Of a stretch of 64,000 nucleotides of DNA, positions 16,480 to 42,581 are shown piece after piece. This stretch comes from Sphaerolaimus hirsutus (taxonomy: Eukaryota > Nematoda > Chromadorea > Monhysterida > Sphaerolaimidae). The notes under the pieces are model-generated. The model had not been told where the DNA came from. It saw only the letters and a list, made by a program, of their open reading frames with translations, and did no database searches. A program made the translations under genes and the position numbers. The stretch covers positions 14,694,001 to 14,758,000 of the forward strand of contig OZ038456.1 in the NCBI GenBank assembly GCA_964036195.1. The letters run 5' to 3'. Each line of letters starts with the position of its first letter. Positions within the stretch are counted from its first letter, which is position 1.

Positions 16480-18940
16480 ATAGGGGGTTGACTTGAGTTT
16501 TTAGGGGCTGAGTTTACAATTCAGGGTTGAGTTGATGGGTGTTGATAAATTAGGGTTGAGTTGACAGAAGTTTAAAGATAAGGGGCTGTTGACACAAGTT
16601 TAAAAATTAGAGGCTGAGTTTATGGGAGTTGAGTTGATGGGTGTATGCCAAATTAGGGGCTGAGTTTATGGGAGTTAACAATAACATTACCATAATCCTT
16701 AAGTGAGGCCCCCGGGGCAAAAAAATATAAATTGTGATATAATGCATTTGTGGGTTACTGATTACAATGATTTGAAATATGCACTCCATTCTGACAGTAC
16801 ATTACGATAACCCTGAAATTGAACCCAAAATGGGGCCAAAATTTTCAAATTGTGAAATGATGCATTGTGGGTTTCTAATTGCACTGATTTGATATATAAT
16901 GCACTCCATTTTGACACTACATTACCATAACCCTGAAAATGAACCACTGGGGCCAAAAACTTTCAATTTGTGAAATGATGCATTTTTGGGTTTCTGGTTG
17001 CACTGATTTCAAATTTAGGTTTCTGATTGCACTGATTTGATATATGCACTCCATTGACACTACATTACCATAACCCGAAAAATGAACCCATGGGGCCAAA
17101 TACTTTCAATTTGAGAAATGATGCATTTTCAGGTTTCTGATTGCACTCATTTGAAATATGCACTTCATTTTGACACTACATTACCATAACCCTGAAAATG
17201 AACCACTGGGGCCAAAAAATTTCAATTTGTGAAATGATGCATTTTTGGGTTTCTGATTGCACTGATTTCAAATTTGGGTTTCTGATTGCACTGATTTGAT
17301 ATATGCACTCCATTTTGACACTACATTACCATAACCCTCGAAATGGACCCATGGGGTTAAATACTTTCAATTTGAGAAATGATGCATTTTCGGGTTTCTG
17401 ATTGCACTTATCTGAAATATGCACTTCATTTTGACACTACATTACCATAACCCTAAAATGAACCCCCTGGGCCAAAAACTTTCAAATCATAAAATGATGG
17501 ATTTGTGAGTTTCTGAGTGTAGTGATTTCAAATATGCCCAGGGCTTAAAAAATTAGAAATTGTGAAATGATTCAATGTGGGTTTCTAATTGCACTGATTT
17601 GAAATATGCACTCCGTTTTGACACTACATAACCCTGAAAACTACATAACCATAACCCTGAAAATGAACCTCTGGAGCCAAAAACTTTCAATTTGTGAAAT
17701 CATTCATTTTTGGGTTTCTGATTGCACTGATTTCAAATTTGGGTCTATGATTGCACCAATTTGATATATGCACTCCATTTTGACACTACATTACCATAAC
17801 CCTAAAAATGAACCCATGGGGCCAAATACTTTCAATTTGAGAAATGATGCATTTTCGGGTTTCTGATAGCACTCATTTGAAATATGCACTTCATTTTGAC
17901 ACTACATTACCATAACCCTAAAAATGAACCCCCTGGGCCAAAAACTTTCAAACCATAAAATGATGGATTTGTGGGTTTCAGAGTGTAGCTATTTCAAATA
18001 TGCCCAGGGCTTAAAAAATTAGAAATTGTGAAATGATTCGATGTGGGCTTCTAATTGCACTGATTTGAAATATGCAATCCATTTTGACACTACATAACCC
18101 TGAAAACTACATAACCATAACCCTGAAAATGAACCTCTGGAGCCAAAAACTTTCAATTTGTGAAATCATTCATTTTCAGGTTTCTGATTGCACTCATTTG
18201 AAATATGCACTTCATTTTGACACTACATTACCATAACCATAAAAATGAACCCCCTAAGCCAAAAACTTTCAAATCATAAAATGATGCATTTGTGGGTTTC
18301 TGATTGTAGCGATTTCAAATATGCACTCCATTTTGACACTACATTACTAAAACTCTGAAATTGAACCCCTAGACCCAAAAATTTCTAATTGTAAAATGAT
18401 GCATTTTGCAGGTTTCTTATTGCACTGATTTGAAATGACTCAATTTCAACTCTACATTACTGTAAGCCTTAAATTGAACCCATGGGGCTAATAAATTAGA
18501 AATTGTGAAATGATGCATTTGTGGCTTTTTGATTGCCTTGATTTGAAATATGCACTTCATTTTGACACTACATTACCATAACCCTGAAAATGAACCCCCA
18601 GGGCCAAAAATTTTCAAATCATAAAATGATGTGTTTGTGGGTTTCTGATGTAGCGATTTCAAATATGCACTCCATTTTGACACCACATTACTAAAACCCT
18701 GATAATGAACCCCTGGGCACAAAAACTTTCAATTTGTGAAATGATGCGTTTGTGGGTTTTATATTGCAGTGATTTGAGATGTGCACTCCATTTCTACTCT
18801 ACATTACCATAACCTTTTAAGTCTAACCCTTGGGGCTAAAAAATTGAAAATTGTGAATTGATGCATTTGTGGATTGATGATAGTGATTTTTTGAAATATT
18901 CATACCATTTTCACACTACATTACCATAAACCTGAAAATG
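16480..18940. repeat. satellite-like tandem array, about 115/145-bp units
   Basis: The unit contains TTTTGACACTACATTACCAT, AACCCTGAAAATGAACC, GGGGCCAAAAACTTTCAATT and GGGTTTCTGATTGCACTGAT. Spacing of the CATTACCATAACCC motif alternates between about 115 and 145 bp, because some units carry an extra 30-bp copy of the GGGTTTCTGATTGCACTGAT part. Units become more divergent toward the right end. Confidence 0.85.
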
Positions 18941-19340
18941 AGTTTACGGGAGTTTCCAAATAAGGGGCTGAGTTTATGGGAGTTTCCAAATTAGGGGCTG
19001 ATTTTAAGGGAGTTTCCAAATTAGGGGCTGAGTTTATGGGAGTTTCTAAATTAGGGGCTGAGTTTATTGGAGTATCCAAATTAGGGCTGAGTTTACATCA
19101 GTTTCCAAATTATGGGTTGAGTTTACAGGAGTTTCCAAAATTGGGGGCTGAGTTTATGGGAGTTTTCAAATTAGAGGCTGAGTTTATGGGAGCTTACAAA
19201 TAAGTGGCTGAGTTTATGGGAGTTTGCAAGTTAGGGGCTGAGTTTACGAGAGTTTGCAAGTTAGGGGCTGAGTTTATAGGAGTTTCCAAATTAGGGGCTG
19301 AGTTTACAGGAGTTTCCAAACTAGGGGCTGTGTTTACAGG
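18941..19340. repeat. 30-bp minisatellite, GGGGCTGAGTTTATGGGAGT units
   Basis: About 13 copies of a 30-bp unit that reads AGGGGCTGAGTTTATGGGAG then TTTCCAAATT. Scattered single copies begin earlier, at about 16500-16680. Since 30 is a multiple of three, the array is open in several frames on both strands; that is not evidence for a protein. Confidence 0.85.
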
Positions 19341-19880
19341 ATTTAGAGGGGGTCCCCATGGGGTGCCATTTTTAAGGGGTCTCCAGGGGGTGCCATTTTC
19401 TGGAGGTACATATGGGGGTGCCATTTCAAGGGGGTCCACATAGGGTGCCATTTTTTGGGTGGTCCCCAGGGGTGCCATTTTTTGGTGGTCCTCAGGGGGG
19501 TGCTATATTTTTTTTGCAGGGGGGTCCTAAGGGGGTGCCATTTTGGGGTGGTCCCCAGGGGGTGCCATTTTTGGAGAGTCCCCAGGGGGAGCCAACTTTG
19601 GGTGGGTCCCCAGGGGGTGCCATTTTTGTGGGGGTTCCTAGGGGGTGCCATGTTTGGGGGGTCCCCAGGGGGTGCTATTTTGGGGGGTCCCAAGGGGGTG
19701 CCATTTTTGGGGGGTCCCTAAGGGGTGCCATTTTTCGGTGGTCCTCAGGGGGTGCCATATTTGTGGGGCCCTAGGGGGTCTCATTTTTGGGCGGTTCCCA
19801 GGGGGTGCCACTTTTGGGGGGTTCCCCGGGGGGTGCCATTTGGAGGGGGGTCCCCATTGGGGTGTCAGTTTTTGCAAGCC
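19341..19880. repeat. GC-rich minisatellite, GGGTGCCATTTTTGGGGGGT units
   Basis: About 18 copies of a 27-31-bp unit containing GGGGTCCCCAGGGGGTGCCA then TTTTTGG. It abuts the previous array directly and is strongly G-rich on the plus strand. Confidence 0.85.
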
Positions 19881-22243: not shown

Positions 22244-22422
22244 TAAAATTTGCTCATCGCTTTACTTAACAGCTTATTACCGCTAGCGAACGAATGGTTT
22301 TTACGATGACTTTGGCGCCGCATTTCACCGCCTTTCATCGCCAAGGGTACCGCGCACCTTTTGCTTTTGTATCCGGCGCCATTTTATTGAACGGAACCAT
22401 TGTGCCCTTGACGCCAGGTGCC

Positions 22423-22600
22423 AGTCCCAAGCGCTGCAATGTCAAGTGTCAAAGGGCATCATAAATGTCATACAAATTTGTCAATTTTAGTGCAACGTTC
22501 AGTAAAAAAACTTTTCTTTTTTGTTTTTAAATGACATTTTACATGACATTTAACACTTGACGTTCAACTTTACAGGACTCGAGACTGCCCCTGGTGTTTT
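22423..22600. repeat. GTGCCAGTCCC-family foldback in the intergenic region
   Basis: On the plus strand it starts CCAG/GTGCCAGTCCCAAGC and ends GGACTCGAGACTGCCCCTG, with TGTCAAGTGTCAA / TTAACACTTGACG arms. Its termini look like an intron of the gene B type (GTGCCA donor), but no exon is seen on either side. Confidence 0.55.
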
Positions 22601-22924: not shown

Positions 22925-25900
22925 CTGCGACGTATTTTTATTGGGGTGGAAAAAATGTCTGGGTCGAAATTGCGTAAATTTAGGGTAATTTTGAATTAAA
23001 AAAACCCAAAAACACTGCGTATTTTCGAGTTTCACTAGAAAAGCAATATATTTTTAGTGGAAAAAAGTGGAAAAGTCTACGTTCAGTCCTGCTGCCGAGA
23101 AGCTAAACCCCAAATCCCGAAAACCCCGCCCAACTAAAATCCTAACCACAATCAAAACCCAACCCAAATCATTCCTACTTACACTCATTCAAACCCCACC
23201 CCTCACCCACCAAATTCCCCCTGGCACCCCTTGGCACCTCCCTCATTCATCCACAAGCCGCAACTCAACCAATTGACAGCATTTGTCAAACTGGCTGCTC
23301 TCTCAGCACACAGTGCATCAGCTGCCCTCTGCAATGCCTGTGAGTATACTGATCTCCTGGGGATGTCTGGCAGGCCGTAGAATTGGGTGTGGAGTAGGTG
23401 GGTTAGTGTGGTCGCGCTGGAGAGACAGAGCCCTGTATGGGGGGGGGGGTGTTTGAGGGTGAAGGGTGGGGTTGGAATGTTTTTTTCTGGTTAGAGGTTT
23501 GAAGTGACTTTATTAAGAATATGTGTCTATGTAATAAATTCGTGATGGATTTTGGTGAAAACTGATCCCTACAGCTAAAATAATCCCCATAGTTCGCACC
23601 AGCGAAAAATAATCCTCCAGTGGGTATTTAGGGAAAATCTTCAAATTCAACATGGGGCCCGCACCCTGTTAAGTGTAAAATAATGTCAAATATCATGGTA
23701 AATGTCACTCAAAATAAAAAGGGAAGATGTTATTGCCGAACTTTTGACATTTTGCATGACATTTGACAATGACATTTTACTTGACATTTGATACTTCACA
23801 CTTTACTGGATATAGGACTGCCCCCAGGGTCAGGCGGTTCATTTGCGTTGCATGTGTGTTCATTAGCACTAACTCATCAACCAATGTCTCCCAACATACC
23901 GACACCCTGCAAATCATCATCCACCCTGACCAAATCACCCGTCCAGCACAGCCTAAGTGCCCAGCCACAAGGATCACCAAAATCATTGGCACCAGATCCA
24001 TAATCTGGCGCCAGCACCAGAAAATCCACCATGCCACCAGGGGGCAGTCCCAGACCCTGCAAAATGTCCTGTAAAATGCTAAATGTCATGCAAAGTGTCA
24101 AAGTCATGTAAAATAGCAACCGTACGTTTTACGTATGTAATTTTACCAGGCATTTTACATGACTTTGACACTTTGCATGACATTTGACATTTTACAGGGC
24201 ATTTTACAGGGTCTGGGACTGGCACCAGGCACTTCTTCTATACCCATTGCCTGTAACTTCTTATAGGCAGTGAGCATTTGCACACCGAGCCAAGTCACGT
24301 TGCGCTCGTGTGTTTTTGCTTGTTGGCCGCCTGCCAAGTGGGTCTGCTGGGTGCGCTGGGCATAACCCGACAGCGTGTAGGGCACGCAGCGAGACAGAAT
24401 GTGTAGCTGTGCGTGGGGGGTATGTGTATGGATATGGTAGACTTCATAGGAAATGGATTGGAAATGCAGTCAGTGAGTTGTATATATTTCCCCAAGTACT
24501 CCATTACTAACCACTTCAAAATCTTATTCAAAACTTTAATTTTCAAACAGACAAGCCCATAATTATGTACCTTTGCTCCATGTGGCATTCTGGCACTGAG
24601 CCAATCTGGTGAGGTTTCACAGTGGAACGTGTGTACAGCTGGCAATTGATATGGCTCACGTTTTTCCTGATACAGATCCACTGTGGTATTGCATGTGTTC
24701 AAACTGATGGCCACTATAGTTACTGGGATGTCTTTGTTTGCGCCATTCTGACCAGAAGTCTGGGGGGTTTTTCAATGTGGACATAAGGATTCCACATTTA
24801 ATTGTAAAAATTTTACTGCCAACCAACCATTTTCACCCTATCAAAAGGCAATATGGCATCATAGAACAGAGCATGATGAGTCTCCAATGTGGGCTGCTGT
24901 TCACCCAAAACCACCAGATCTGACAAGGCCACTTCTGTCCATTTCACATTCATTGCTGGCCCATATTCACCAGACATTTGGTCATAATGAGTGTATAGGA
25001 AAGACAGTGTGCTCAACTGGATAAAAAAGGTTTGTACCGGTGATTTGTGATGGTTACAAAATTGCAAAAAATATATTGGTGAAATATCACTGACATGGCT
25101 ATTGCTTATGGCCACATTTCCTGGAGAAAACACATCGTTCCCAGTATTGACATAATTTTCACCAGCAAAACTGGCTTGTCTTCTGTGGCCATTTATTGGT
25201 GGTGATTTATGTTGGTTTGGTCTGACAGTGGCTGCTGGCCTGATGTCAAAGAAATTCCTGGCCTGTGCCCCATCTGGTTCCATGTATGAATGCCTAAAGT
25301 GTGATTTTGAATGCCTTTCAGAATGCCCAGATTTTTTACAGCTGCCTGTTCGGTGGAATAATGGTTCATGCATTTTGCTGTGGTCCAAAATTTGTTTTTG
25401 TGTTCACCTGTAAATCGGTGGTTGTCAGGATTGTGGTCAGAACCTGATACAGGCACCTCAACCATATCCCTGACCTTGACTTGTTGTTTTCTTGAGAGTG
25501 ATTCAGCTGCCATACACTTTTCATCTGGGGAGTGCATTGTAAAATCACCTGAAACATCATAACGTGGGGTCAAATGAGCTAATTGTTTAGCAAATTACCA
25601 GTTCCTGTAAAAACAGACCATACTGTCCCACTTGATGGCACAAGTCCTCATATTTAGTATTGGATACATGTTTGTTGCCACCTGTACATGTCTGCTTGCC
25701 ACCAAATCTGCTGACCAGCCTGTGAAAATTGCTGGTCTTGCTGGTGGGTGAAATGTGGAAGGCCATTTCATCCACTTCACTGGGGTCTGTGGGGAAAATT
25801 GTGCCAACTTTGAACTGTAAAAATCAATCAAAATCAAAACCTACTTTGATGCTGGTGCACAGCTTGACTGGTGTCAACCATCAGGTCAACTGGTTCAGGA

Positions 25901-28900
25901 ATATGTCTGCAAATGTGAATGTCCACATGCTGTGATGTACATTTTGGCATCATGCCAGAATTTGCAGTTTTATTTTCTACTGCAGTTGTGGTTTTCCCCT
26001 CATTTTCTATAATTTGGGATCCCTGAATTATCTCAGAATTGGGTCTATGTGTCTTTTGGAGACTCTGCCCATTCTGCGGAGATTGGTTGCTCGCTGTTCC
26101 TGGTGAAAATCCACTTGATGCAGTTGACTTTCTGCGAGTTGACAAAACACGGCAGTTGTCAAAACAGAATCACTTGTCAAAATTATAGCATACCTATCAC
26201 GTGACACTGACTTTGTTTTTGTTCCCTTCACACTATTGATCCTGTACAAGTGATTATTTTTATTCCCAGCACTATCAGTATTTTGCGGACTGGGACTGGA
26301 GTGTGCAAACGAGGAACTGTTCGTGTGCAGACTGTTTTCCGTGTTCGCTGGCGACACCGTGCTGGAGAACATGCCTGCGGATTTCAGACGTTTAAAGTTT
26401 ACCGTATCCCATCTGAAAAAAATATCAAAACTATATTTGTGGGTGTATTTGATTGGCAATTTTTCACGTGACTTTTTTTCATCGATATATGCTAAAAAAG
26501 ATCGACTAGCATGCAGGTGGCAATCCCTGACTGTAGTGTAAAGTAAAGTGTCAAATGTAAAGTCAAATGCAAAGTAAAGTGTCAAATGTAAAGTAAAGTG
26601 TCAATTATGTACCCAAATCTTATTTTTTGGTATCCAAATATTATGTTTTTGTATCCAAATCTTACTATTTGACATAAGATTTGGATACAAAAACATAAGA
26701 TTTGGATACCAAAAATGATATTTGGATACACAATTGACACTTTACTTTAAAGTTGACACTTTACTTTACACTTTACAGGGCTTGGTGGGACTGCCCCGAA
26801 CCGTCAGTTCAGCAAATAGACATGAAAAAACCCAACAGCAACAAAGAACAGCAATGGCCATGCGCACAGTAGTTTTCACACGAAATTTGGAAAACTCATC
26901 AATCAGCTTTGAACTAGGGTTGGAAAAAAACGTTTTTTTTTAACTCGTGATGTTTTTAAAAAAAAAAACGTTTTTTTTTAATAAAAAACGTTGTTTTTTT
27001 TAAAGTTCCCAGATATGACCTTGTGTCAACATATATAGGTATATCAGAGAGTGGCAATATACTGTGATGTTATATATGACCATATAATGGCTGTGGAGCC
27101 ATGGGATAGCATTATAAGTGGTGATTTGTGTCAAAAATATCCATTTTTCGTCGACATATCATTTGTATATTGCCTTATAGTCGAATGTTCGTGACTTCAG
27201 GTAAAGTTAAGCACGGAATAGTGATGAAACAAGGTTATAAAAGGAGGTTGTTACTTTGGGAGTGAAGTTACACACTGTGGAGGTACATGGAAGCACATTA
27301 CCTCAATATTATATACTACAGCAACATATGACGGCTTATTAACCCATGGTAGCACATAGAAATGGATACTTTGGTACTAAAAATGCCACAAAACCAATGA
27401 AAACAACCACCAATGTCAATTTGTGTGTGAAATTGCGCACTTGCGCGCAAAAATTTTGCAAAATACCAAGTGCTTAGTACTAAAAAAAACGTTTAAAAAA
27501 AAAAAACGTTTAAAAAAAACATCGGCCAACCCTACTTTGAACGCATTTGAGTTTTCTACAATGAGTCACTTATAATCTCCGTCAACTGTAGTTGACGGAC
27601 ACCTCATTGTAAAAAACTCAAACGCGTACAAAGCTGATTTATGGGTTCTCAAAACCTTGTGTGAAAACTAGCGTGCGCAGGCACAATGAAATGACACACC
27701 ATTTTGGCTGTGTCCTTCTGAAGAGCTGCCATCGCAAGCCAAACTGAGAACATTGGCTGACATAGGTGCTGGGGGTGCTGGCAGAATCTTCATTAATTTC
27801 GTTTTTGCATCCTGTGATGATGATTTTATTAGGCCGACACATTTTTGGGTTGTTCGATTCACGGTTTTACTTTAAATTAAAATTTTGACGTTAAAATTTT
27901 TGATTAACTTCGTATCCCACAAATCGTGCAGACCGACAAAAACGTTTTAAAAAATCGGGCTTCTAAATTTTACTTTCGCACCTGAGCTTTGTCAGCCCCA
28001 CGTAAAGTAGCATATTCTGACTGCTGTCCGTTCTCGGCAACTTGGCAACCAGTTGACAAAGTTGGCTCATTGCCAACTGGTGATGGTCCTATAGCAATTG
28101 ACAGGGCGCCTTTTGCCACGGGACTGGTACTTTTCGATTTTGGAACGTTTGATGATTGTTTGCCATTTTCTGTGATCATTTGTTTGATTGATTTTTGCTT
28201 GCTTTGATCGTGAGTTTTGCTGGCGTGGTCTGGCTGAATCTGGAATGGTAATTTTTTGATTGTTTCGCAGGTGACAAATTGATGAAGGTTCTACGCACGA
28301 TAGTTGGCAATGGATTTAATCTGGTTTTCGTGCCAATTCAGATTTTAGTTGATTGTTCGCAGAATGATGCTTAGCCGTCAACTAAAATCTGAATTGACAG
28401 GGAAATCAGTTGACTGGCGCTAGGACACAATTAAACACCAGGTGTCAAAGTGAAGTACCAAAATAGCTAACTGGAAGCACGAGTGTTGGTGCGGGCAAAT
28501 GCTTTGTAAATGCTCCATTTCTCTCAATGTTATCAGTTTTTCCATTCACTAACTCCCTCATCTTTGATACATTTCCCTTGTTTTCGCCATACTTTTTCTG
28601 GCCAGCATCCAACTTTCTTGGCTGACTGTCAAGTTGCTGACATTTTTGTTGCTGGCTCAGTGGTACGTTGGCTGCTGACATACTCTTCACCAATGTCACT
28701 GACTTTGCATGGTGAATTACTGAGTCTGATTGTTGGCATAGACGGGCACCTGTTTGATGTGTGCATTGTTGATAAATACGTATACTCGAGTACTGCGTAA
28801 ATACTTCCGAAAAAATACTTAAATACGAAAAAATTCACCTGGATATTTGCTATTTTCAGTACAATCTCCATACTTTGCATTCTGTGACCATTCGTACACT

Positions 28901-30762
28901 TTTCCAAAATCGATTTCATTGATTTTTTTACCGCCATCAGAGCCAGATTTTCTCAGATTTCCCTGAGTCTGTTTCCCATTTTTCGCACTTTTTCCATTCA
29001 CACCACTCGTTGGGGTTGCGCCAGAATTCGCGTGATAAATGCCGCTGGAGTCAATCAGCTGAAGCGCGATGAAAAATTACATCCCAATTCCTGAAGAAAC
29101 CCCTGGATGGAATACCCTACCATTCGTGTAAGCGAATTTGGGCGCAATTAGGGTTGATCGAATTTGGTGCCCATTTTTTTACGTGGGCTTATTCGTCAAA
29201 ATACGGTCAAATACCCTCTGATATGCTGACCGAAAGTACAAAGCCCATCATTATGTTCCAAATTGGGAAACGGCCCAGAAAACCCCCCGATTTAAACAGC
29301 TTACCTTTGGCCGAATTTTAGCAGTCGCCACAGGCCGCACGGAATCGAACGCTGACCCATCAGATTTCCGCAGTCTCAGGGCATTTCGCAGCGCCATCGA
29401 CGCGTCTCGTTCATTCTGATTGGGGGGGGGGCATGTAAAGTGTGAAAATGTAAAATTAAAAATTTATTTAACAAAATTTGTGAAATTTCAGATGAAACAA
29501 TATTTTGGCTAACAATGTGAAGCGATATTTTGGCTGACATTTATGTGAAACATTGACTGACTTTTTACATGACATTTTACGGTGCACGGGAAGGGCCCTA
29601 TGCATGCTGTTGGTGAAAAAATAAAATTTACAATGCACCCCAAAATCATAAGCGCTAAAAATACCAAAAACAATTCAAATCCCATCCGAACCACACCTGA
29701 AATTCTAAACCATCATCCCGGTATCCATCGCTCTCAAAATTACTTGTCACTGTGCCAAAAGTGGCATCAAAAGCCCCCTTAGGCACAATATCCGCCCTGG
29801 GGCAGTCCCACACCCTGTCAAATGCGCTGTAAAATGTAAAATGTCATGCAAAGCGGCAAAAGTCATGTAAAATGACATGCAAAGTGGCAAAAGTCATGTA
29901 AAAATGGAAAGTAATTCATTTGACATTTTCCAGGACATCTCACAGAGTCTGGGAGTGGCACCTGATATCATAGCACCAATTCGCCTGTGCACCCCCTGCC
30001 ACAGCAGTGCCACCACTGGCAGTTTTGGCCATGGTGCCAGGATGTGGCATGCTGCAGCTGGCCATGTTGGTGCCATGGCAGCTGGGGTATGCCATGGCTG
30101 GTTGGATCTGGACGGTGCCTTTGAGGGGGTTGATACGGTGATAAATTAGTTGTTTATTAGTGCGATGAAGCTGTGATTGTGATTTTTTTAAATACATGGC
30201 CAGGGCCAATTATGAAAGTGGACAAGTGACAAGTAGTAGCTCAACTTTAATCAGGGATAATGCGTAAAGTCTCGATAATGTCTCTGAAACTACTTTTGTC
30301 ACTTAACAATTCAGAAAGATATCAAGGGTGCCAAAACTACCATGAAAAGCAACGAAATTCCATCTGCCAAGCTAAAATATAATATCAACATTTCCCGCAA
30401 TGTGGTCACACAAGCTAGTTTTCAACCAAAATTTTGAAAACTTGTAAATTTGCATTGAATGCATTTGAGTTTTCTAGAATGAGGTGCCCATCATCTACAG
30501 TTGACGGAGAGTAAAAATGACTCATTCTAGAAAACTCAATGCGTTCAATGCTGATTTAAGAGTTTTCAAAAAGGAACATTGAAAACTAGCTTGTGTGGCC
30601 ACAATAAGACACTTTATTTGTCACTTGGCACGTGGGAACTTCTAAGACTCAAGAAAATATGAAACTTCATAAATAGTGTAAACTTCATTTCAAACCCTGA
30701 CCATTTTTTCCCACCGCATGTCTGATGGGCTTTGGTCGGATTAAATCGCATTTCGATGGCAT
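22702..30762 (-). CDS. gene B, copy 1: 19-exon Ser/Asn/Lys-rich protein, about 1,097 aa, family unrecognised
   Basis: Minus-strand exons: 30696-30762 (ATG, MPSKCDLIRPKP), 29962-30118, 29697-29796, 29305-29415, 28839-29058, 28472-28749, 27982-28239, 27700-27811, 26194-26374, 25879-26131, 25619-25814, 25408-25548, 25038-25345, 24828-25016, 24571-24747, 24226-24406, 23931-24004, 23270-23337, 22702-22924 (stop). All junctions are GT..AG and in phase, summing to 1,098 codons. The N-terminal half is disordered-looking (Ser, Asn, Lys, Gln), with ERDASMALRNALRLRKSDG as a basic amphipathic patch. The C-terminal third is richer in hydrophobics (MNVKWTEVALSDLVVLGEQ, VHTFHCETSPDWLSARMPHG, NVTWLGVQMLTAYKKLQAMG) and is probably folded. 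No signal peptide or membrane span. Weakest parts: the donor at 25879, the donor at 25619, and exon 23931-24004. I do not recognise the family. Confidence 0.72.
23829..24003 (+). CDS. alternative plus-strand reading of the same segment, Ser/Pro-rich
   Basis: Between two GTGCCAGTCC-family foldbacks, the plus strand has an open Ser/Pro-rich stretch (SPNIPTPCKSSSTLTKSP) that follows a CCCCCAG acceptor and ends in TAA. The opposite strand supplies gene B exon 23931-24004 in the model above. Only one is likely to be real; composition favours this one, phase continuity favours the gene B exon. Confidence 0.25.
24039..24225 (-). mobile_element. second gene B intron with a donor formed by the same foldback family
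   Basis: On the minus strand the exon ends GAAGTGCCTG and the intron begins GTGCCAGTCCCAGACCCTG. The far end of the hairpin reads CAGGGTCTGGGACTGCCCCC. The arms pair over about 75 bp (CAAATGTCATGCAAAGTGTC / its complement). Here the acceptor used in the model lies about 33 nt beyond the hairpin, at 24005. Confidence 0.7.
26538..26790. repeat. foldback with tandem GTAAAGTAAAGTGTCAA subrepeats
   Basis: AAAGTAAAGTGTCAAATGTA repeats at the left are matched by inverted TTTACTTTACACTTTACAGG at the right. At the centre are paired ATCCAAATCTTA / TAAGATTTGGAT blocks. It ends TACAGGGCTTGGTGGGACTG then CCCC, so it is a distant member of the intron-forming family. It lies in the gene B intron between 26375 and 27699. 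Confidence 0.6.
26857..27684. repeat. long-stem foldback split by the hAT at 26915
   Basis: Termini ATGCGCACAGTAGTTTTCAC and GTGAAAACTAGCGTGCGC. The uninterrupted (and partly deleted) copy is at 44211-44381. Confidence 0.75.
26915..27534. mobile_element. hAT element inserted inside a foldback, 620 bp
   Basis: Ends TAGGGTTGG and CCAACCCTA, flanked by an exact 8-bp direct repeat CTTTGAAC (26907-26914, 27535-27542). The second copy of the locus has the empty site at 44263-44270 with a single CTTTGAAC. The host foldback spans 26857-27684. No transposase frame. Confidence 0.88.
28290..28430. repeat. foldback element in a gene B intron
   Basis: TGCCAATTCAGATTTTAGTT at the left pairs with CAACTAAAATCTGAATTGAC at the right around a short loop. 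The equivalent is at 45160-45290. Confidence 0.6.
29797..29961 (-). mobile_element. gene B intron made entirely of a foldback element (introner candidate), copy 1
   Basis: On the minus strand the exon ends GATATCAG and the intron begins GTGCCACTCCCAGACTCTG. It ends GGGTGTGGGACTGCCCCAG directly before the next exon (GGCGGATATTG). The two ends are inverted repeats (CTCCCAGACTCTGT / ACAGGGTGTGGGA). The interior holds further inverted ACATTTTACA / TGTAAAATGT motifs. So element ends and splice sites coincide at both sides. The equivalent intron in the second copy (47658-47892) is longer but has the same ends. Confidence 0.8.
30401..30601. mobile_element. foldback insertion present only in copy 1
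   Basis: Ends TGTGGTCACACAAGCTAGTT and AACTAGCTTGTGTGGCCACA, with long inner pairing. The second copy shows the uninterrupted sequence CCCGCAATAAG at about 48337-48347. It lies in the gene B intron after the start-codon exon. Confidence 0.8.
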
Positions 30763-33700
30763 TATGTCGAAAATAAAATCGACAATTTCCACGCGAAAAT
30801 ACCAAATTAGAGTGTAAACGATTAAAATTATAGAAAAACGTAGGCTATTTTCTGCTAAAGTGTGAAAATAGAGATAGATCATAGATAGACAGGGCGGAAA
30901 ATTTTCGTATGTTTATTCCCGCAGTAACAGAATGAAATGCCGAATAACTTCAGCCAAGTGTGAATACAAACGTCGCTTCTTTTGCCTGTCAAAGGTGTTG
31001 TTCTTTTGTTATTTACCAGGGCACAGTTTCTATTGAATTTTTATCCAATTTTGATTGCATTTTAGTTGAAACGGCTACCTAATTATTTATGTCTCTTCAC
31101 CACAAAAAATAATTCGAAATGTACAGGTTTTGGTGGACCGAGAAACATAACTTGATTGACCTTTTCCACCAGTAATTTTCATTGAAAACTGGAGAAATTG
31201 CGCCCTGGATCTATCTCAGCCATTGAACATTGGCATTCACGCATGACGGTGTTAGGCGGGACTTTTCTTTTTTCATTTTTTAAAATCCGTTTGTCGGATG
31301 TAAAAAATTCCAGTTCAGCAGGGATCAAAACCGCAAGTGGACACGTGCGACGAAAAGTGGCGATGAAAATTACACGTTGTTAGTCAAGTGACAAGTCAAG
31401 TTTTAAGTGGCAAGAGTGCCCATTCAGCAATTTACTCTACCTACTTATCATTTATAAAATTTTTGTCACTCAACTTATAATTGCCACTTTTGTTGTCAAT
31501 TGTCAGTTTGCAGAATGTGTACATGATTTCGGCTATCGACATCAGATTTTAATTAAATGGCAAGAAATTTAAAGCATTTAAAAATGGAAAATGGTCATAT
31601 GATGATTTCCTAACAAAAGCTTTCCACAGCTTTATTTGCTTTGGAGTATCATTGTAATGTGCTCGAAAAAACTGGCATTTTTTAAGTGGTAGTATTTTGC
31701 TCGCAGATATTTTTACTGTGGGAATAAAAGGACTGCCAGACGGTAGACAGGAAATAAGTTACAACAGTGTGTTGCAGAAAAATTTTGATTGTATTTTTAT
31801 GAACCTGATAAAATTTTGTAGTTGTGGTGTGAAATAGTAAAAGTGAGAGCGATCTAATGTGATACTAATAATACATTTTTTTGTTCATATTGAATACGTT
31901 ATTTTTTTTGATTCTATTCTAAAATGTGCATTTCTAAAATGATATTTATCAGTTTTTTTATGTGAGATATGCAAAAGGCATCTGCGTCGTTATAAGGAAG
32001 AAGTAATGTGAGCAAAATTGAAACCACAAATATTTGTAAAGCGTACTTTTATTTGAGCCACCCTGTAATTCCAAAAGTCACAAATTTTTCCACCTTCAGA
32101 GCGGCATTTCTCAGCACATCCGCTCACAGATAAAACGCACAAAAAGGTGACCTACTCAAAAACTTGTTTTCTTTGTTGTGCACTGCGCGGTGCGTAGTTT
32201 TTCCTGTTTTGCACGGGTGTTTAAACAAGGGGGGTTGCATTTGGGGGGGGGTAGTATTACAGTACTGGCGGAACTCCCAGAGCCTGTGAAATTCCCTGTA
32301 AAATGTTATGCAGTGGCAGAATTAATGCAAAATGCCAGGGCAATTTACAGGGTTTGGAAGTGGCACATGATAAGATACAATGCTTTAAAGTGAATATTAT
32401 CATATTTCTAAGAATAAAGGCACGTGGTAACTTATGTATAATACCAAAGTCAAGGGTAGTGAAAGCAGCAGGATGTGATAAGAAAAATACAATATTTAAA
32501 AATGGTTAATGGATAGGAAAAGGGAATAGAATTTTTGGAATTCACGCAGCAGATAGGTATAAATATAAATCAGTCTTTGGTATTTTTTAGCACCGAGCTT
32601 AACCCAAATGCCAAATCTGAGATGCCAACAATGCAAACAAAAATTTGATTTGCCTCCAGGCATTTAAATCGGACCAAACTTTTGTGCATGTTTTTTTACA
32701 TATTGGCTAGCCGGAAGTGCTTACTCCAACTTTTTATTTATAATCCTATTTTTGATTTTAGAGGCCATCAAAATGAAAAATCCGCAGCTTTAGTTATAGC
32801 AGGATGCGTTTTCGAAATGTGAATGTGAGGTTGTCAAATTCCCTGAATAAACAAAGAGCTAAACGTCACTTTGTAGCATTTCCTCTATTCTTGTAAAGTA
32901 GGTACGCTTAGCTCGATGCAGATATATACAACAGGTCAATTCTGCGAGTGCCAAGAAAAGTGGTAAAAAATAAAGTCATAGGTGGTAAGACGGTAAGTCA
33001 AGCGAAAAGTACCTACATCCATTAATCGCAGGTTACCGTATTTCCCTTGAAATACCCCCCGGGAGTGATTCTTTTATATTGAAAATTTAGAGGGGGGTAT
33101 TTCGAGGCGGTATTATTTCGTCAGAAATTTTCTCTAAATTCATATTATTCATTTGGAGCGGGGTAGTTGGAGGAAATACGGTATTTTACTCGCCTCACAG
33201 TCACACGCAATTACCACTTAACACTTCTATCACTTGTTGTCACCTTGCGAAATGAGCACCAAGTAACGCATATAAATAAAATAGTTGAGCGAATCTATTC
33301 CAAAAATGCACTATTGGAACATTTGTTTTTAGATCTAATAATTGGGCTGCTGCACCAGGGTAGGCGGGGTATGTCAGCTTGTGTTTCTGAAAGCAAACAA
33401 TATTGTTTAGGCCATGAACAATTTTGGTTAATTATACATTTCTAGTATTTTCTATGGTGTATAGGTAATTTTTTACTTCAAACTACCCACCAAATTGTGA
33501 CTTTTATTACCATCATTGATTTGACGTTGATTTTGGCCGAAAACAATCTTACTGTTGCAAAAACACGTGGATAGGTCTTTACACTTGATGTAAGAAAAAA
33601 CAGTGTAAGTATAAATTCAAAATACCTAGATAGCCAGTGAAACTGGCAACTAATTATTAAAATGTTTATGAGCTTCACTAGTATTAAACCCAAATTTCCT

Positions 33701-35114
33701 ATGCTCAATTGACACTTATTGCAATAGTAAATATATAATAGAAATAATGTAAAAGAAATTGATCTAGAACACATGAGGGCTATTTGTTTGCAAAACTGTT
33801 CCAATTCTCACAACACTTCAGTTCAGCTGGGTATTGCTGCCTGCAAATTATACAGACTTGTCTATTTGTGCTATTTTCGTCTACTGACCGCAAATTTTAT
33901 TTATGAAATCTAAATTTACAAGTTCAATCTTTTTGAATAAAATAACGAGATAGATGAGGGTCAATTCCGCAAGTTGAGAAGTGAAAAAGCAATCTAGAAG
34001 TGGGAAGTAAAACGAAAGGCAAAAAGTGAAAAGTACCTACCGAAGTTCTTGGGAAATGTAAAAATGTAAAAAGCCCTGGGAAATGTAAAAAGTCATGAAA
34101 GTGTCAAAAGTCATGTAAAATGCCGTGGAAAATGGCAAACGTATATAGGGTATTTCAAATCACTTTTGACACTTTGCATGACATTTTACATTTTACATGG
34201 CATTTTACAGGGTCTGGGTTTGATCCCAGTGATTTCAGGTGCCTAGTGCCAGCCAGCCAATTTTTGAGACAGTAACAAGACATCAATAAAATGAAAATCT
34301 GGTGCACGTGTCCAGATATATCGTATTTTGTCTAAACAGTAAATACCGAGTTTAAGCAGGAAATTTGGAGGAAAATTAGATCGGTCAATGACAAACACAC
34401 CGCCCTGAAGGCAAATAAAAATATCGAATAGTACGCGGATGAAATTAAAAAGTGATCGTGTGGGCTGTACAAACAGAGTAAAATGTTACAAATTGGTTGA
34501 TAAAATACAAATTAATATACCTACCGATATAATATGAGGATAAAAGTGCCAGTGAAAGTAAAAATTTGGCTCCAGTAAAAAAAATTTCTATGAAATTTAC
34601 ATTGCACCCTAATTCATTGCTTGATTGAAGCATATTTTCATTGCTTGAAACATACTCATACCGTCAGATGCAGAAAAATCCAACAATAACATGGGTGCAT
34701 AGTACCTTAGGTGTCTACAGACATACTGTATTTGTGTGCATAATTCCTACACTTGAATAGTATCCCCTGTAAGAGGTCTGACGCAAAAATTATTTCCGAT
34801 GACGCATAATTGAAATGCTAGCAACAAAATTACAATAATGAATGTGTTAAACATCACCAAAATTATATAATTCAGCAGATGAGGTAGTAGAATATGAGCA
34901 AATAAAATTTTTTATTACGAAACTTTGGCGCCATTTCAGGCGCCATCCAAAACAGAAAAATGCGCCAAGCGCCAATAGCGCCATAGCGCCATTCCATTAC
35001 TAGTGCCAAGTAGTGATGGAAAGGCAACGGGTCACCGGTGCCCCGGTGCTGGGCACCGAAGGCCACCAGCACCGGTGCTGGTGCGGTGCGGTGCCATTTT
35101 TCGAGGGTGCCCTG

Positions 35115-36077
35115 TAGGGCTCGAACTCGACTCGACTCGACTCGTGACTCGAGGGTAAAACAGGGTACCGACTCGACTCGTCTGACTCGACCGGAAAAAT
35201 ATGGCCCAAACTCGAGACTCGAGGTTTTTGCCTGACTCGACTCGAAATTTTGGCAAATTTCGAGTCAGGGTTTCCATTGAATAATGTTCTAAAATATCAA
35301 TTTTGATATGAAATTTTAAACCTATTTTTCAAAAAATTTGCGCGCCAGCGCATTTCCACACCACATGTGTGATATATTGTGGATTTGCTTGGCATATGTA
35401 TGGAATGGTGTTAAAACTCAAATTTCGTATTGCCATACAATTCTACATAATGTGCATGTGCACATTAGTTTAGCGCCAGATTTTGGTAAACTCATAAATC
35501 GGCTTAGATAAAATGCATTTGAGTTTACTGAAATGAGTAATTGTTAATCCCCATCAACTGCAGTTGACAGATACATCATTATGGTAAATTCAAATGTGTT
35601 CAAAGCCGATTTATGAGTTCACCAAAATCTGACAGTAAACTAGTATGTGCAGCGCCACATGTGAAACAGACACACACCACCTCAAATGCATTGCAAAATG
35701 TTGGCACTGATCCAAAAAATGTTGTAAAAGATGTTGATTTTCCATCCCTAGGCCAATTTTATTTTTGCAACTTTATTTGTAACAACATGAGTGATCAAAA
35801 GTTCAATTTTTGCTTAATCTTGATATTTAAATGAACTTTTGGCATTTAGACTCCATTAAGTGTATGTGAAAACATTGGTAGAGAAACCAGCATCAAAAAT
35901 TACTGCAAGGGTCATACCAAAAAGTAACGCATCCGACTCGACTCGAGACTCGAGATTTTTGCCCGACTCGACTCGATCTTTCGCTGGCTCGCCCGACTCG
36001 ACTCGCCGACTCGACCGGAAAAAATTTGAGGTTGCGACTCGAACTCGAGTTTGAGAAAAATCGAGTTTCGAGCCCTA
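35115..36077. mobile_element. hAT element nested in the previous one, TAGGGCTCGAACTCGA ends
   Basis: Ends TAGGGCTCGAACTCGA and TCGAGTTTCGAGCCCTA with an exact 8-bp flanking repeat GTGCCCTG (35107-35114, 36078-36085). The subterminal parts are CGACTCGACTCG simple repeats. A truncated relative with the same right end lies at 62310-62437. Confidence 0.87.
35447..35660. repeat. foldback nested third-level within the hAT pair
   Basis: ACATAATGTGCATGTGCACA, then TTAGTTTAGCGCC, pairs with CTAGTATGTGCAGCGCCACA at the other end. Inner pair TGAGTTTACTGAAATGAG / TCATTATGGTAAATTCA. Same long-stem plan as 8641-8840. Confidence 0.65.
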
Positions 36078-37040
36078 GTGCCCTGCCTATGCCGGTGCCA
36101 TTTTTTTAAGAATAGCACCGGTGCCGGTGCGGTGCGGTGCGGTGCCATTTTTCAGCGGGTGCCAAAGGTGCAAGCACCAGGGCTAAAGTGAAATGCACCG
36201 AGAAATGCACCGGCCAAGTCTTCATAGGTTGTAAAATTTCGTCCACCGCATGCGCTTACCTTTACATATCTACAAGAGCAGCGATATATCCAAATGTTTT
36301 CAGTCTATTTTGGAAGAAACATCCCATCAAATATACTTAGAAATCTGCAGAAAAAAACATCCCTTCTGAAGAGGGAACAAAAATTGTGTTGTTTTCATAA
36401 TCATAAATATTAAATTTGTTGCATCATTTTGTTCATAATTTATTGTCGGTTGATGACAAAATATAGTAACATTTTCAGTACACATCCATCCCAGTCAGTA
36501 TACAATAGTGACTGTGTATTGGAGCATATTGAATATTTGAGCTATCATTTTTAAACATTGTAATTACTTCATAAAGTGATCGCCATGTCATTCTGATCAT
36601 TTTAAATGCTAAACCATCAAAATCGGTAGAGAATTCATGGAAATACGCAGTTCGAAAGGTGACGCATCTGAGAAAATACCCGATAACTACTTCGGAAACT
36701 GCATCCCGGTGCGGTGCCTTTCGGTGCTAGCACCGGCAGCCGGCCGGTGCCCCAGGGTGCCGGTGCTATTTTTTTCAAAATGGCACCGGTGCCGGTGCGG
36801 TGCGGTGCCGGTGCGGTGCGGTGCCATTTTTTGGCCGGTGCCCATGGTGCCAGCCAGGTGCCCTTTCTGAGGAATGGCACCGGTGCCGGTGCGGTGCCAT
36901 ATTTCCCGGTGCCTTTTCCATCACTAGTGCCAAGACGTAGCAATTAGTAAATCGAGTTCCATGTAAATATCTAGTTTTATTTCGGGTTATTCCTTGTCAA
37001 TTTGCGTACAACTTTCCTTATCACTTTACACTCTATCGGT

Positions 37041-37220
37041 ACGCACATTACCTAGTTGACAACCAAAATTTTCAAAGCTGATAAATCTCATTGCGGTGAA
37101 CTCAAATGTGTTTAAAACAGGAGTCTGTCAACTACTGTTGATGGAGATACAAAATGGTTCATTCTGGTAAACTCCAATGCGTTTAAAACTGATTTATCTT
37201 AGCAACTAGCTGGCGCGGGG
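37041..37220. repeat. foldback element, CCTAGTTGACAACC / GCAACTAGC ends
   Basis: Long-stem foldback with inner GTGAACTCAAATGTGTTTAA / GTAAACTCCAATGCGTTTAA pairing. The equivalent in copy 2 is 53101-53283. Confidence 0.6.
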
Positions 37221-38415
37221 CTTTTCCTTGCAATTTCGTTCACTTGGAGAATTGGCACCAGAACAGAAATCAGAATTCTCAACTCACATTCATCATTCTG
37301 CGGAATCATTGTCATGCCAGAATCCAGAGGTTTTTTCTTCATATTAACCGACAACTAAAAAGTAGTAGGCTTTTTTTAGTCTGATTGACATTGTTTTTGA
37401 CAATCTATAGCAGTGGATGTCTATTTTGACATCTGCTTTTTACATTCTAAATATGTAGGTAACGTGATATTCTGGCACTCACGTGAAATACAATTTCTGT
37501 ATTGAAAAAGCTTTACTCATTGTGTACGCACAGCTAGACAATGTTTAAGATGATCAAATATCGCATTTCCAACTGGGTCAAAAGGTAAAATATCTAAAGA
37601 TTTAATTAGCGCTAGTTCAATATTGTTCAAAAACGAATTTCACCGTAACATGTGGGCACTATTTCAACTTTCATGGAAACTAGATAAATTTATAAAAATG
37701 AAGATTTTTTGGCGAAGTATACCCAGCTAAATATAATTGAAATTTTATACACGAATTTTGCAATCCATACTTGGTATGTTATGTTGAGAAACAATGTCAT
37801 AATGTCTGTATGTTGAGAAAAGCACATGGACTCAGTTCAAACTTTTGGCAAACGAGAAATTTTAAAAACAAATTTAAACTATAAACACATGTTTCAATTG
37901 TGGTATACCGTATATAGGTACTCGAATAAGACATCGGGAGAGTTATTACCTTGTCAGAAATTGCTGAGGGGGTGTTATTCGAGGGGGGTTATTTTTTATC
38001 ACCTCGCGAACGGGAGTAGTTTTTCAAGGGTTATTCGAGTTACTCGCGGGGGTGTTATTCGAGAATTGTTCCGCATAATTTACAACAAATTTTCGTTTGT
38101 CTCGAGTTGGAACGATCGACTGGCAGTCAATGGGGAAAACAAACAAACAGAAAAATCAGGGATGTGTATAAAAGTGAATGGAATTTATCACCAAATTGTG
38201 TATTTTTGAAATATGTCCATCCCTTGTAAAGCTGAGAAGGGATGGACATATTTCTCGACCCTAAATATCGGTTGTCCATCTCTACTTTCACAAAGAAAAA
38301 CTGTGCAAAAACATGCTCACAAAAACTATTAATTTATGACAGTACAGTATAATGTACAACTTTTCAACACGTACAAAAGTCACGCAAATTTTAATATAAT
38401 TTTCACACTCAATTT

Positions 38416-41377
38416 TCAATTTTTCACAGCGACAATAACACCGCAGGCAATAACATCGCCCGCGTTTCCATTCACAGCTGAATTTTGGGTGCCGCCCAGG
38501 CCGAAATCATCCCGATTCGCATAGATTGCTATCGCTCTGCGAAATGAATATTGCGTATTTTCGTTTGAATTATGGTAATTTTAGAATATTTATTTCCCAA
38601 TCCATTAATTTAAAGGCATCATAAAATATTAAATACATTGAATGCCCATAATATCCAAAATATTCGTCCTTTTGGGGCAAAGCGCCATTTTCTCTGGCAC
38701 CAGGCACCATTCATCCCGGTGCTTTTCCATCACTACACAATACACAACAAACCTGCCCAAAACTCCTCCATCATTATTACTCAATCGCAATCGCGAACTG
38801 GTTACATCCATTCTGGCGAGCGTATTACTTCCAAAACCAGTTGCCAAAATGTTGCCCAAATCACCGGCGTGCGAATTTGCAGTTGACGTAGATGGGGCTC
38901 CGTGAACTGAACCGGTTGGGTTGAAATGCCCGCCCAGATTGCGACAGTTTTGACTGGGTGTGGTAGGGATGGAAAATGTAACAAAAATATGATTGAATGA
39001 AAAATGTCATGTAAATATAATGTAAGATGTCCGATGAATTTGTACGTCATTTACCTTTACCTTTATTTAAATGTTTTAAAAAACACTTGCAAAATCTGCT
39101 CTGATGTTTCACATTTTATATGATATTTTACAGGGTGCGGGAATGACCTCAGTCCCAAAAGTTTAAAATGAGTGCTTGCTTGAGCTGTCACCATCAAAGA
39201 ATGCAACACATTTTTGTGAAAAGTCAGTTAAGTGAGGGAATATCTGATAAAATATTTGATTGAACTCACTACAAAATTACTATGCAAAACAAATTGATCG
39301 AAATTTTTGAATAAGGTATAAAAATTGATGCAACAAAAATGATTGATTCTATAACGAAAATTTGGCCATACATGAATCACAAGTAACAAAAAGTGACACT
39401 ATTCCACTGCTTCTGAAGCCGATTCCGCAAGTAAAAAATTGACGCGAAAAGTGTGAGTGGTCAGACAAGTCAACATAATGGCGATGCACACACTAGTTTA
39501 CTAACAGAAGTAGACTCATTTTGGGTGCTCATAAATACGCTTTGAACGCATTTGAGTTTACCAGAATGAGGTGTCTGTGAACTACAGTTGACGAGGCTGT
39601 AAAATCACGTATTCTGGTAAACTCAAATACATCAGCTGATGCATGGGCATCCAAATTGAGTTTACTGCTGTTAGTAAACTAGTGTGTGCAGCCACATAAA
39701 GTGACCAGAAATCTTTGAAAATACATGTCCCTTAAAGCTGTATCGTTACTAAACTTGCCACTTTAAAATTTACTTACCACTTACCACTTTTCACGTCACT
39801 TATCCACTCACAAAGTCAAGCCCAAAAACACACCTGACATCGCCATATTCCATCAAAGCCACAGCGTGTTCGCCAACTGGCAACCCATTCACTTGACCGG
39901 AAACTCTCAACAGCCCATTGAATAATGTCTGTTGCAGATCGATAGTGCCGGAAATTTGCGAATTTAATTGTGAGAACGCTGGCAGAATTGCAGCTCGCGC
40001 GTAGTAGACTGAGGGTGTTGCCTGTGGGGGGAGGGGGGGTAAGGAAAAAAACATTTTGTAAATTTAAGGTGAGATGAGAATTACCTATGTGGGAACTTGT
40101 GAAATTGTTGTTGTGTTCACTATTCCATAATAGGGTCCAAACGGGATCCCAATCCCGAATCGCGATAATTTTCGGAATTTTGCGGCCCCGATGCCGAAAA
40201 GTCGATCCCGTTTGAAACGTTTTCCATAATACTTACATACTTACTTTTGTAATTGCAAATAAAGTGGGTTTATTTTGCTGTTCGTGTTTAAAAATACCTT
40301 TGGGATCGTATCAAATATTTTTTTAAAGTCGTCTTTCATTCGATAAAATACCTGGTTCCAGATATATACTCGGCGGACAGCACACTTAGTATGAAAACAT
40401 ACCATAATTTGATAAATAAAATATTGAAATAAATTTCGTAATAAATTATTACACAGTAAAGACGAAAAACTATAAGTTTTGGTTCATGATTCAGATGGGT
40501 TGTGGTAGGTTTTCATACTAAGTGTGATGTCCGCCGAGTATACCTAAATAAGACGCCATTTTACAATCTCCCCTCCCACCCCCCCCCCCAAAAAAAAAAC
40601 GATGAAAAGGCCCCCCACAAACCAATCCAGGACCCCCAACCTCAGTGCAAGCGGTCACACTAACACAGGGGGCCCCCACATTCTCACTCTGTCTCACATA
40701 GCCGGCCCTGCAAAAACAGCCCAGTTGGCACGTTGCCAAAGGGGTCAAATTGTTGGAGCAGGACCTCAATGTAGCGCAGGTAGCTTCACGTCCATTTGGG
40801 CACAGGGATCTTTGGCACTGGGAGAATACTTCGTTTGGATCTGTGCAGATGCAGCGTCTGCGATTGGGGTGACATTTTTCTTGGTTAGAGGGTGGCGATG
40901 TTATTTTTTGCATTTTTGATGGGGGGTTTTCTGTGTCTTCTGTTCCGTGAAATTTTGTTTAATTGTCATGTCCCAGCTTTTGAATCTGCCAACAAAAGAG
41001 ACAATGGAAAATGCACAATGCACACCAATATGTTCCACACGCAAGTTGCATGTATTCATCTTTTTCTCTTTCAATTTCTGCCTGTTTTGCTTTAATGAAA
41101 AGCCTAATAGTTCTGAAAAATGATACACCCCATTTCATTTGATACACAAATTAAAAAATATGTAAGTACAAAACAAGTGTATCCCAAAACCACATCAAAA
41201 TTCCGGAAACTGACCTATTGACAGCACTCGTTCCAATCGCATTGACAATGGGGCAACATTTTCTACCCCTCTCACACTGTGAATCGAGTGAACAAAAAGC
41301 GCCGGGGGTGTCTACCGTATCCCGGGGACAAACATTGTACGTGGGACCGTTACCACCCTGGGGGGCAATTCCAGTGC
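38416..41377 (-). CDS. gene A, copy 1 (left contig): Cys-rich + TIL + SOD-like, 5' exons missing at the gap
   Basis: Minus-strand exons: 41215-41377 (Cys-rich), 40641-40857 (TIL), 39834-40021, 38753-38953 and 38416-38536 (SOD-like, stop TGA). Phases 2, 0, 2, 2 match at all junctions; 295 residues remain. The sequence is nearly identical to the copy at 54436-61828. The three upstream TIL exons present there have no counterpart here, because the contig ends at 42106. It is best read as the other allele of the same gene cut by the assembly gap; otherwise it is a 5'-truncated duplicate. Confidence 0.85.
39481..39697. repeat. long-stem foldback in a gene A intron
   Basis: GCGATGCACACACTAGTTTA pairs with TAAACTAGTGTGTGCAGCC. 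Inner pair TGAGTTTACCAGAATGAG / ATTCTGGTAAACTCA. The equivalent in copy 2 is 56808-57026. Confidence 0.75.
40366..40541. repeat. foldback element, ACTCGGCGGACA ends
   Basis: TATACTCGGCGGACAGCACA then CTTAGTATGAAAAC at the left; GTTTTCATACTAAGTGTGAT then GTCCGCCGAGTATA at the right, a terminal pair of over 30 bp. It lies in the gene A intron between the TIL and SOD exons. The equivalent in copy 2 is 60356-60535. Confidence 0.75.
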
Positions 41378-41711
41378 CTGAAGGGGGGGGGGTATTCGAA
41401 ATTAAACTTGTTTTGGAAATTGTTTTGGCGGTTTGGCTGTGGTAATATTGTGTGAAATGAGGTGTTTGTCTACGAAAGCTGTCAGATGCCAATTCCACAA
41501 GTGGACAGGTGACAAGAAAACTGGAAATCGATGAGTAAAGTAAAGTGATAAGTAAACTCATAGGTGACAATCATCTAAATAAATTTTGTAGCAATAAAGT
41601 TTCTTGCGACTTTAAACTTGCGGAATTGACTCAAGAATCCTCAAAGCAACAAAGGATTCTAGACAAATCGAAAAATTATTTAAGTACAGCCAGATTTATG
41701 TGCTGTTAATA

Positions 41712-42000
41712 AACACCTTCCCGGTCACGTACGGCAGCCATTTTTTGATTGTACTTCTTCTATCCTATCCCCAGTTCTAGGGCGCCCCCGAGGCTGAAAC
41801 TTGGGGGAGATATTGTCGCAACCCCCCTCTACTTCGCATGAATTGGGGGGGTCGCCGCGACCCCCCCAATTCATGCGAAGTAGAGGGGGGTTGCGCCAAT
41901 ATATCCCCCAAGTTTCAGCCTCGGGGGCGCCCTAGAACTGGGGATAGGATAGAAGAAGTAAAATAAAAAAATTGCTGCCGGACGTGACCGGGAAGGTGTT
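41712..42000. mobile_element. 289-bp near-perfect palindrome flanked by TA, copy 1 only
   Basis: Begins AACACCTTCCCGGTCACGT and ends ACGTGACCGGGAAGGTGTT. The two arms are nearly identical over their whole length and meet at GGTCGCCGCGACC, leaving almost no loop. TA is on both sides. The second copy has uninterrupted sequence at about 62151-62166. The 2.6-kb element at 57428-60070 has the same termini. Confidence 0.85.
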
Positions 42001-42106
42001 TAGTTATCAAAGCAAAGCAGGTGAAGCTTTTGAGCATATTAGTTCCTTAGTCATCATCACAAAATGCAAAATAACAAGCTTGTACGTGCATTAAAATTAA
42101 ATAAAA

Positions 42107-42306
42107 NNNNNNNNNNNNNNNNNNNNNNNNNNNNNNNNNNNNNNNNNNNNNNNNNNNNNNNNNNNNNNNNNNNNNNNNNNNNNNNNNNNNNNNNNNNNNN
42201 NNNNNNNNNNNNNNNNNNNNNNNNNNNNNNNNNNNNNNNNNNNNNNNNNNNNNNNNNNNNNNNNNNNNNNNNNNNNNNNNNNNNNNNNNNNNNNNNNNNN
42301 NNNNNN
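42107..42306. other. assembly gap, exactly 200 N
   Basis: A round-number run of N joins two contigs. Homology between the two copies extends on the left side up to this gap. Confidence 1.
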
Positions 42307-42576: not shown

Positions 42577-42581
42577 CATAC

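Follow-up and report, generated by a model that had tools for sequence, protein, structure and literature searches.

Can the insertion of one transposon supply both splice sites of an intron in an animal gene? The question is raised by a short segment on the minus strand (29797-29961) of the 64,000-nucleotide stretch of Sphaerolaimus hirsutus DNA analysed here (the window), where the original prediction placed an intron whose two splice sites are the two ends of a foldback transposon. I found that this segment, hereafter intron A, consists of an element body (29800-29961) and the 3′ copy of a target site, CAG (29797-29799). Read on the minus strand from 29961 to 29797, it begins with GTGCCACTCCCAGACTCTG and ends with GGTGTGGGACTGCCCCAG; the fuller read is GTGCCACTCCCAG...GGGACTGCCCCAG. 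As predicted, the ends are inverted repeats of each other, over 41 nt with 78% identity in this copy at 29.8 kb and 83% in a copy at 47.7 kb, and the tips of the repeat in intron A differ in their first bases, which are GTG on the left and GGG on the right. The predicted RNA fold of both copies is a long hairpin pairing the two ends, and it beats 200 of 200 shuffled sequences in each case (z = -4.55 for intron A and -7.20 for the 47.7-kb copy). For intron A as single-stranded DNA with 10 flanking bases on each side, z is -2.75, and 2 of the 200 shuffled sequences did as well. No Rfam family matched at the gathering scores. On sequence grounds, 29797-29961 is a well-supported candidate for a transposon-made intron.

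Does the element interrupt a coding gene? On the minus strand, exon 1 (29962-30095, with the ATG at 30095) ends ATATCAG, its last three bases (29962-29964) being the upstream copy of the target site, and exon 2 (29655-29796) starts GGCGGAT and ends with TAG. When the element is removed, a frame of 91 amino acids runs from the ATG at 30095 to the TAG at 29655, and this frame is phase-consistent over the intron, as originally stated, exon 1 having 134 coding bases (phase 2). When the intron is retained, a stop codon lies six codons further on in both gene copies. The second copy of the gene (47516-48026, minus strand, ATG at 48026) encodes the same protein and carries the same insertion (47658-47892, minus strand) with an interior 70 bases longer. 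Between the gene copies, one of the 276 coding bases differs, and synonymously, whereas 21 of 165 aligned intron bases are substituted, with 70 gap columns in addition (Fisher P = 8e-9 for 1/273 versus 21/165). This contrast supports the presence of a coding gene interrupted at 29797-29961. The flanks differ at 12 of 100 bases after the stop and at 7 of 52 before the start; the 17 bases upstream of the ATG have no substitution. The identity between the gene copies ends 6 bases past the in-frame TAG and stops 3 bases inside the acceptor border. Since identical runs of 60 to 252 bases are also present elsewhere in the duplicated block, the exon run alone is no proof, and the argument lies in the way in which the edges of the run fit the ATG, the TAG, and the intron. 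As a check, an exon of a superoxide dismutase (SOD)-like gene, placed by homology at about 38953-38753, was compared with the identical run at 38744-38958, which is at most 9 bases off on each side.

The two gene copies belong to two colinear copies of a large block (26187-42106 and 42575-62264), which differ by 619 substitutions in 11,175 aligned bases (5.5%; 16 segments were aligned, with an overlap of about 38 bases between two of them). Because a run of 200 N (42107-42306) separates them, the block copies may be unmerged haplotypes placed in series rather than a tandem duplication. The 268 bases following the N run have no match in the first block copy. Thus, the insertion at 47658-47892, which had been taken as a second, independent intron, is the intron A insertion in the duplicated block, and I rejected it as independent support. 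The prediction of a foldback transposon stands in that a transposon-like element family with an empty site elsewhere was found (see below), but with one independent intron locus and not two. Since only one independent locus in the window lies inside a gene as such an intron, the term introner family is unproven. Other insertions are present in the second duplicate only (49181-49609, 50031-50272, 57428-60070, and 61105-61631); their tips are inverted repeats, short direct repeats lie at their junctions (e.g., ATCCCAA around 61105-61631), and they seem to be further foldback or DNA elements for which the first duplicate offers natural empty sites. Long inverted repeats lie at 59036-59656 (88.8% over 624 aligned bases) and at 41704-42009 (94.7% over 304), the latter close to the N run, and large diverged tandem-repeat arrays occupy 16684-18941 and 18939-19874.

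Is the element one of a family? With up to three mismatches allowed, one end motif was matched five times in the window against 0.06 expected, and the other three times against 0.01 expected, with both duplicates counted. A profile built from five sequences (the 29.8-kb, 47.7-kb, and 32.3-kb copies and the 24.0-kb copy on both strands) detected some 11 loci across the window with E values no higher than 0.0012, at 0.1, 14.5, 22.4, 23.7, 24.0, 26.5, 29.5, 29.8 (with 47.7), 32.3 (with 50.7), 34.1 (with 52.4), and 39.0 (with 56.4) kb. Words such as CATTTTACA and TGCATGACATTT recur through the low-complexity interior of the element, and the weakest profile matches may therefore be compositional. 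The further members that had been predicted were found close to the places given, at about 22418-22591 (plus strand), 34065-34222 (divergent ends, strand not assigned), and 52322-52480, together with more, but those listed as 34055-34235 and 52310-52480 are one duplicated locus. The member at 24041-24225 (minus strand) is a palindrome over nearly its whole length, and that at 26517-26797 (plus strand) is present in duplicate 1 only; the terminal AG is absent from these two and from the 22.4-kb copy. A diverged member at 23652-23824 (plus strand) has an intact right end with CAG and an unrecognisable left end, while another at 32268-32366 (minus strand) has kept both GT and AG. Nothing shows the latter to be an intron, because no reading frame of 100 amino acids or more overlaps it and no other segment of the block is as diverged as the one that holds it (161/1117); the left end of its duplicate, at about 50676-50779, is damaged. 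One more diverged member (38996-39147, minus strand; duplicate 56335-56462) lies inside an intron of the Cu/Zn-SOD-like gene. Collections of viral and prokaryotic contigs, from which little was expected, were also searched. The pattern GGTCTGGGACTGCCMC was found in 18 viral contigs, one of which matched an element at threshold over 21 bases only, taken as chance; the interior pattern was found in no viral contig, and the end pattern in no contig of the genome-contig collection.

The ends of the elements take the form CWG/GTG on the left and CWG/GGG on the right (a slash marks the border). The left ends are cag/GTG (29.8 kb), ctg/GTG (24.0), cag/GTG (22.4), cag/GTG (26.5), and cat/GTG (32.3), that is, CWG/GTG in four of the five loci with a recognisable left end. 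Read inward, the right ends are ctg/GGG (29.8), cag/GGGG (24.0), cag/GGG (22.4), ctg/GGGG (23.7), ttc/GGGG (26.5), and ctg/GCGG (32.3), that is, CWG/G in five of six; those of the duplicates are ctg/CGG (47.7) and tgg/GGGG or, shifted by one base, ctg/GGGGG (50.7). CWG adjoins nine of 11 independent recognisable ends, where a border inside a C or G run was chosen by eye, within one base, so as to place CWG next to it. CWG is found at 2.8% of window positions, and for nine of 12 ends, with one unrecognisable left end counted, the binomial P is about 2e-12, for a motif that was picked after seeing the ends. The two ends differ: GTG is found in all five recognisable left ends and in none of eight right ends, and a GGG start in six of eight right ends and in none of five left ends (right-end counts include duplicates). 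Among the five loci with both ends, the target copies match at 29.8 kb (CAG on both sides) and at 24.0 kb (CTG on both sides); they differ at W at 22.4 kb (CAG left, CTG right), are CAT (left) and CAG (right) at 32.3 kb, and include a damaged right copy at 26.5 kb.

The filled site of the 26.5-kb copy has an empty counterpart in duplicate 2 (44145-44178, plus strand), AGCATGCAG/AACCGTCAG, whose junction context is ...GACTAGCATGCAG/AACCGTCAGTTCAG..., identical over 15 bases on the left and 25 on the right. The empty CAG/AACCG compares with the filled CAG/GTGGC...CCCCG/AACCG, and hence the 26.5-kb element begins at the GT right after CAG. This empty site indicates that the element family moves. 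Either the element never entered duplicate 2 or it was precisely excised from it, and on its own the site is also compatible with an insertion that duplicated no target. A four-base target CAGG and a five-base target CCWGG were dropped, since CAG is followed by AACCG in the empty site and the G after CAG thus belongs to the element. An 8-bp duplication of the hAT type was not seen by eye in the flanks. The original prediction omitted the CWG target copies, which would explain the origin of the splice sites.

Other genes of the window offer splice sites for comparison. Pfam gave matches to SOD (3.9e-11), WAP (5.4e-5), and DUF3402 (3.7e-6), which I take to be a STRIP-type domain, and to TIL at 0.018, below its cut-off; no homologues of the TIL-like frame were found. 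The Cu/Zn-SOD-like gene lies at about 40021-38431 (minus strand), with a second copy within 57289-54451, and the best two of 40 matches of its protein are from Rhizoctonia solani (41%) and Gnathostoma spinigerum (45%). Aligned by eye, the first copy has HAVALMEYGD in place of the usual Cu/Zn-SOD stretch HGFHIHEFGD, and two copper-binding histidines are thus apparently lacking; in the second copy, LMEYGDV alone was located. The element-family members in this gene (38996-39147 and 56335-56462) run near the C-rich acceptor of the intron, and the alignment stops short of the intron end. In the gene with the DUF3402 match, at about 11640-12120 (plus strand), a weak family match (11835-11900, E 0.039) lies between two exons.

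Which splice sites would intron A use? The outer pair consists of the donor CAG/GTGCCA and the acceptor GCCCCAG/G (GCCGCAG/G in the second copy). The prediction that the intron ends coincide with the exon borders is thus borne out as far as plausible splice sites at both ends are concerned, but the donor is ambiguous with TCT/GTGAGA, which lies in frame 18 bases inside the element. The six donors that were read by eye in the SOD-like, WAP, TIL-like, and STRIP-like genes (GTGTGT, GTTTGT, GTCAGT, GTTGGG, GTTCGG, and GTTTGT) have G at both -1 and +5. GTGCCA is a weak donor with the G at -1 and not at +5, while GTGAGA has the G at +5, like the other donors, and not at -1. The six acceptors read by eye in the window comprise three C-rich ones (CCCCCCACAG and CACACCCAG in the SOD-like gene and CCCCCCTTCAG before the WAP exon) and three T-rich ones (one SOD-like and two STRIP-like). 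T-rich acceptors like TTTTACAG are also present in frame inside the element, namely CATTTTACAG 30 bases and CATTTGACAG 18 bases before its end (CATTTTACAG replaces CATTTGACAG in the second copy); of the two, CATTTTACAG is similar to TTTGCAG and TTTTTCAG, which are STRIP-like acceptors. The element may therefore have been inserted into the exon and be spliced at such inner sites, with the GTGAGA donor and/or the acceptor 30 or 18 bases before the end, which would lengthen the protein by 6 to 16 residues. As this reading would have it, each of the six possible pairings (two donors, three acceptors) leaves an open, in-frame coding sequence in both copies. However, the last 30 bases before the outer acceptor differ at five sites between the copies (by eye), which would mean four residue differences if coding, against no residue change in the 276 coding bases; these 30 bases look non-coding, and the outer acceptor is favoured over the inner ones. 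On the donor side, the first 18 bases of the element have one difference, which would be synonymous, and the data thus do not discriminate between GTGCCA and GTGAGA. Splicing at inner sites seems to me unlikely on balance but by no means negligible.

Two further explanations concern the intron and the gene themselves. An ordinary older intron might have received the element and then lost the remainder of its original sequence. Another family member does sit in an intron, that of the SOD-like gene, but both exon borders of intron A are element ends with matching CAG copies, and zero intron sequence is left outside the element, so that this history is improbable. It is likewise hard to credit that there is no gene here and that the element was merely inserted between two non-coding conserved blocks. 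The 91-residue spliced product has no homologue at E 1 among 5.8 billion proteins and none in plasmid records, no Pfam match, and a single PDB match at E 3.3, taken as chance, and the identical runs elsewhere in the block also suit this explanation. The limits of the conserved run, which respect the ATG and the TAG, with the lone synonymous change in frame, argue against it, and so does the number of changes itself: the P of at most one difference in 273 bases is 3e-6 if the block average of 5.5% is applied and 6e-5 for the 4.4% that is usual in many block segments.

The explanation that I prefer, and consider somewhat probable, is that a CWG-targeting foldback transposon was inserted at a CAG in the coding sequence and became the intron. 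A short, NuwaI-like foldback element that carries no gene would have been inserted at a coding CAG with duplication of the CAG, giving exon-CAG/GTGCC...GCCC-CAG/exon. The left end of the element would become the GT donor, and the downstream CAG copy the acceptor, aided by the terminal C run of the element; the upstream CAG copy would form an exon end favouring a donor, and the hairpin could draw both splice sites together. Splicing would leave one CAG and thus the exact pre-insertion mRNA (the uninterrupted sequence is ATATCAGGGCGGAT), so that the insertion could persist as an intron. An insertion in reverse orientation or at a CTG target cannot yield such an intron.

It may be asked whether NuwaI-like transposons with a CWG target come predisposed to make introns in animals, and whether the family found here is a polarised animal introner family. 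I regard this as doubtful, though worth stating. The duplicated CAG would be favoured both where exons end and where introns end; one change from GGG to GTG at one tip might then be enough for every sense-oriented insertion at CAG to become a seamless GT-CAG intron. If so, sense-oriented CAG insertions of this family in exons should be spliced exactly, while CTG insertions and reversed insertions should not survive in exons. A further animal introner tied to a transposon group by its target would explain the source of both splice sites, and such a case would predict which transposons can make introns.

How does the family compare with known transposons? According to the consulted text of PMC4482050, the NuwaI group belongs to the PHIS superfamily (PIF/Harbinger, ISL2EU, Spy), makes CWG target duplications, has inverted repeats of 12-61 bp that usually start with GGG, and occurs in 16 animal genomes. 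The family in the window seems to share with NuwaI, as described there, the CWG target, a G-rich terminal inverted repeat in this length range (41 nt here), an animal host, and a paralogous empty site, but it is short, its left end is GTG and not GGG, and only two of five both-ended loci have matching target copies. Counting against the explanation preferred above are this left GTG, the CAG and CTG of the 22418 copy, the CAT and CAG of the 32268 copy, and the 26.5-kb copy without a complete right CAG, and, besides the weak donor and the T-rich inner acceptors, the single intron locus and a host gene for which the searches found no homologue. No transposase was found among the 20 window proteins searched against Pfam (the spliced product and 19 of 73 frames). 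The element family resembles NuwaI in its target and right end, and I do not call it a member.

Among known systems of intron gain, MITE-derived introns with non-canonical splice sites have reportedly been described in the larvacean Fritillaria; an animal host and foldback elements as introns would be common to both cases, while the splice sites are non-canonical there. No CWG-type introner was found in the open-licence literature searched, at least in titles and the starts of abstracts. In the consulted part of PMC9860276, introners are reported from 175 of 3,325 genomes, with two groups among animals and land plants, both of them animal, and families there range from 5 copies to more than 2,000, compared with one candidate intron locus in the window. 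The same text describes element ends at or near both splice sites and a spliced mRNA of unchanged length, as seems to be the case for intron A, and inverted repeats in 72 of 177 introner families, as here. In some of its families, the element brings one splice site and the target duplication provides the other; the introners of Chrysochromulina carry the 5′ site and co-opt the 3′ site in this manner, as is proposed here, although inverted repeats are absent from that family and its target duplication is 4 bp long (PMC9860276). The introners of Amoebophrya, in the portion of PMC7789003 consulted, were defined on non-canonical introns, few of them in MITE families, whereas the candidate here would be GT-AG; they resemble it in their hairpin, in the inverted repeats that lie just within the ends of the intron, and in direct repeats (3-5 nt) that extend across the borders with the exons.
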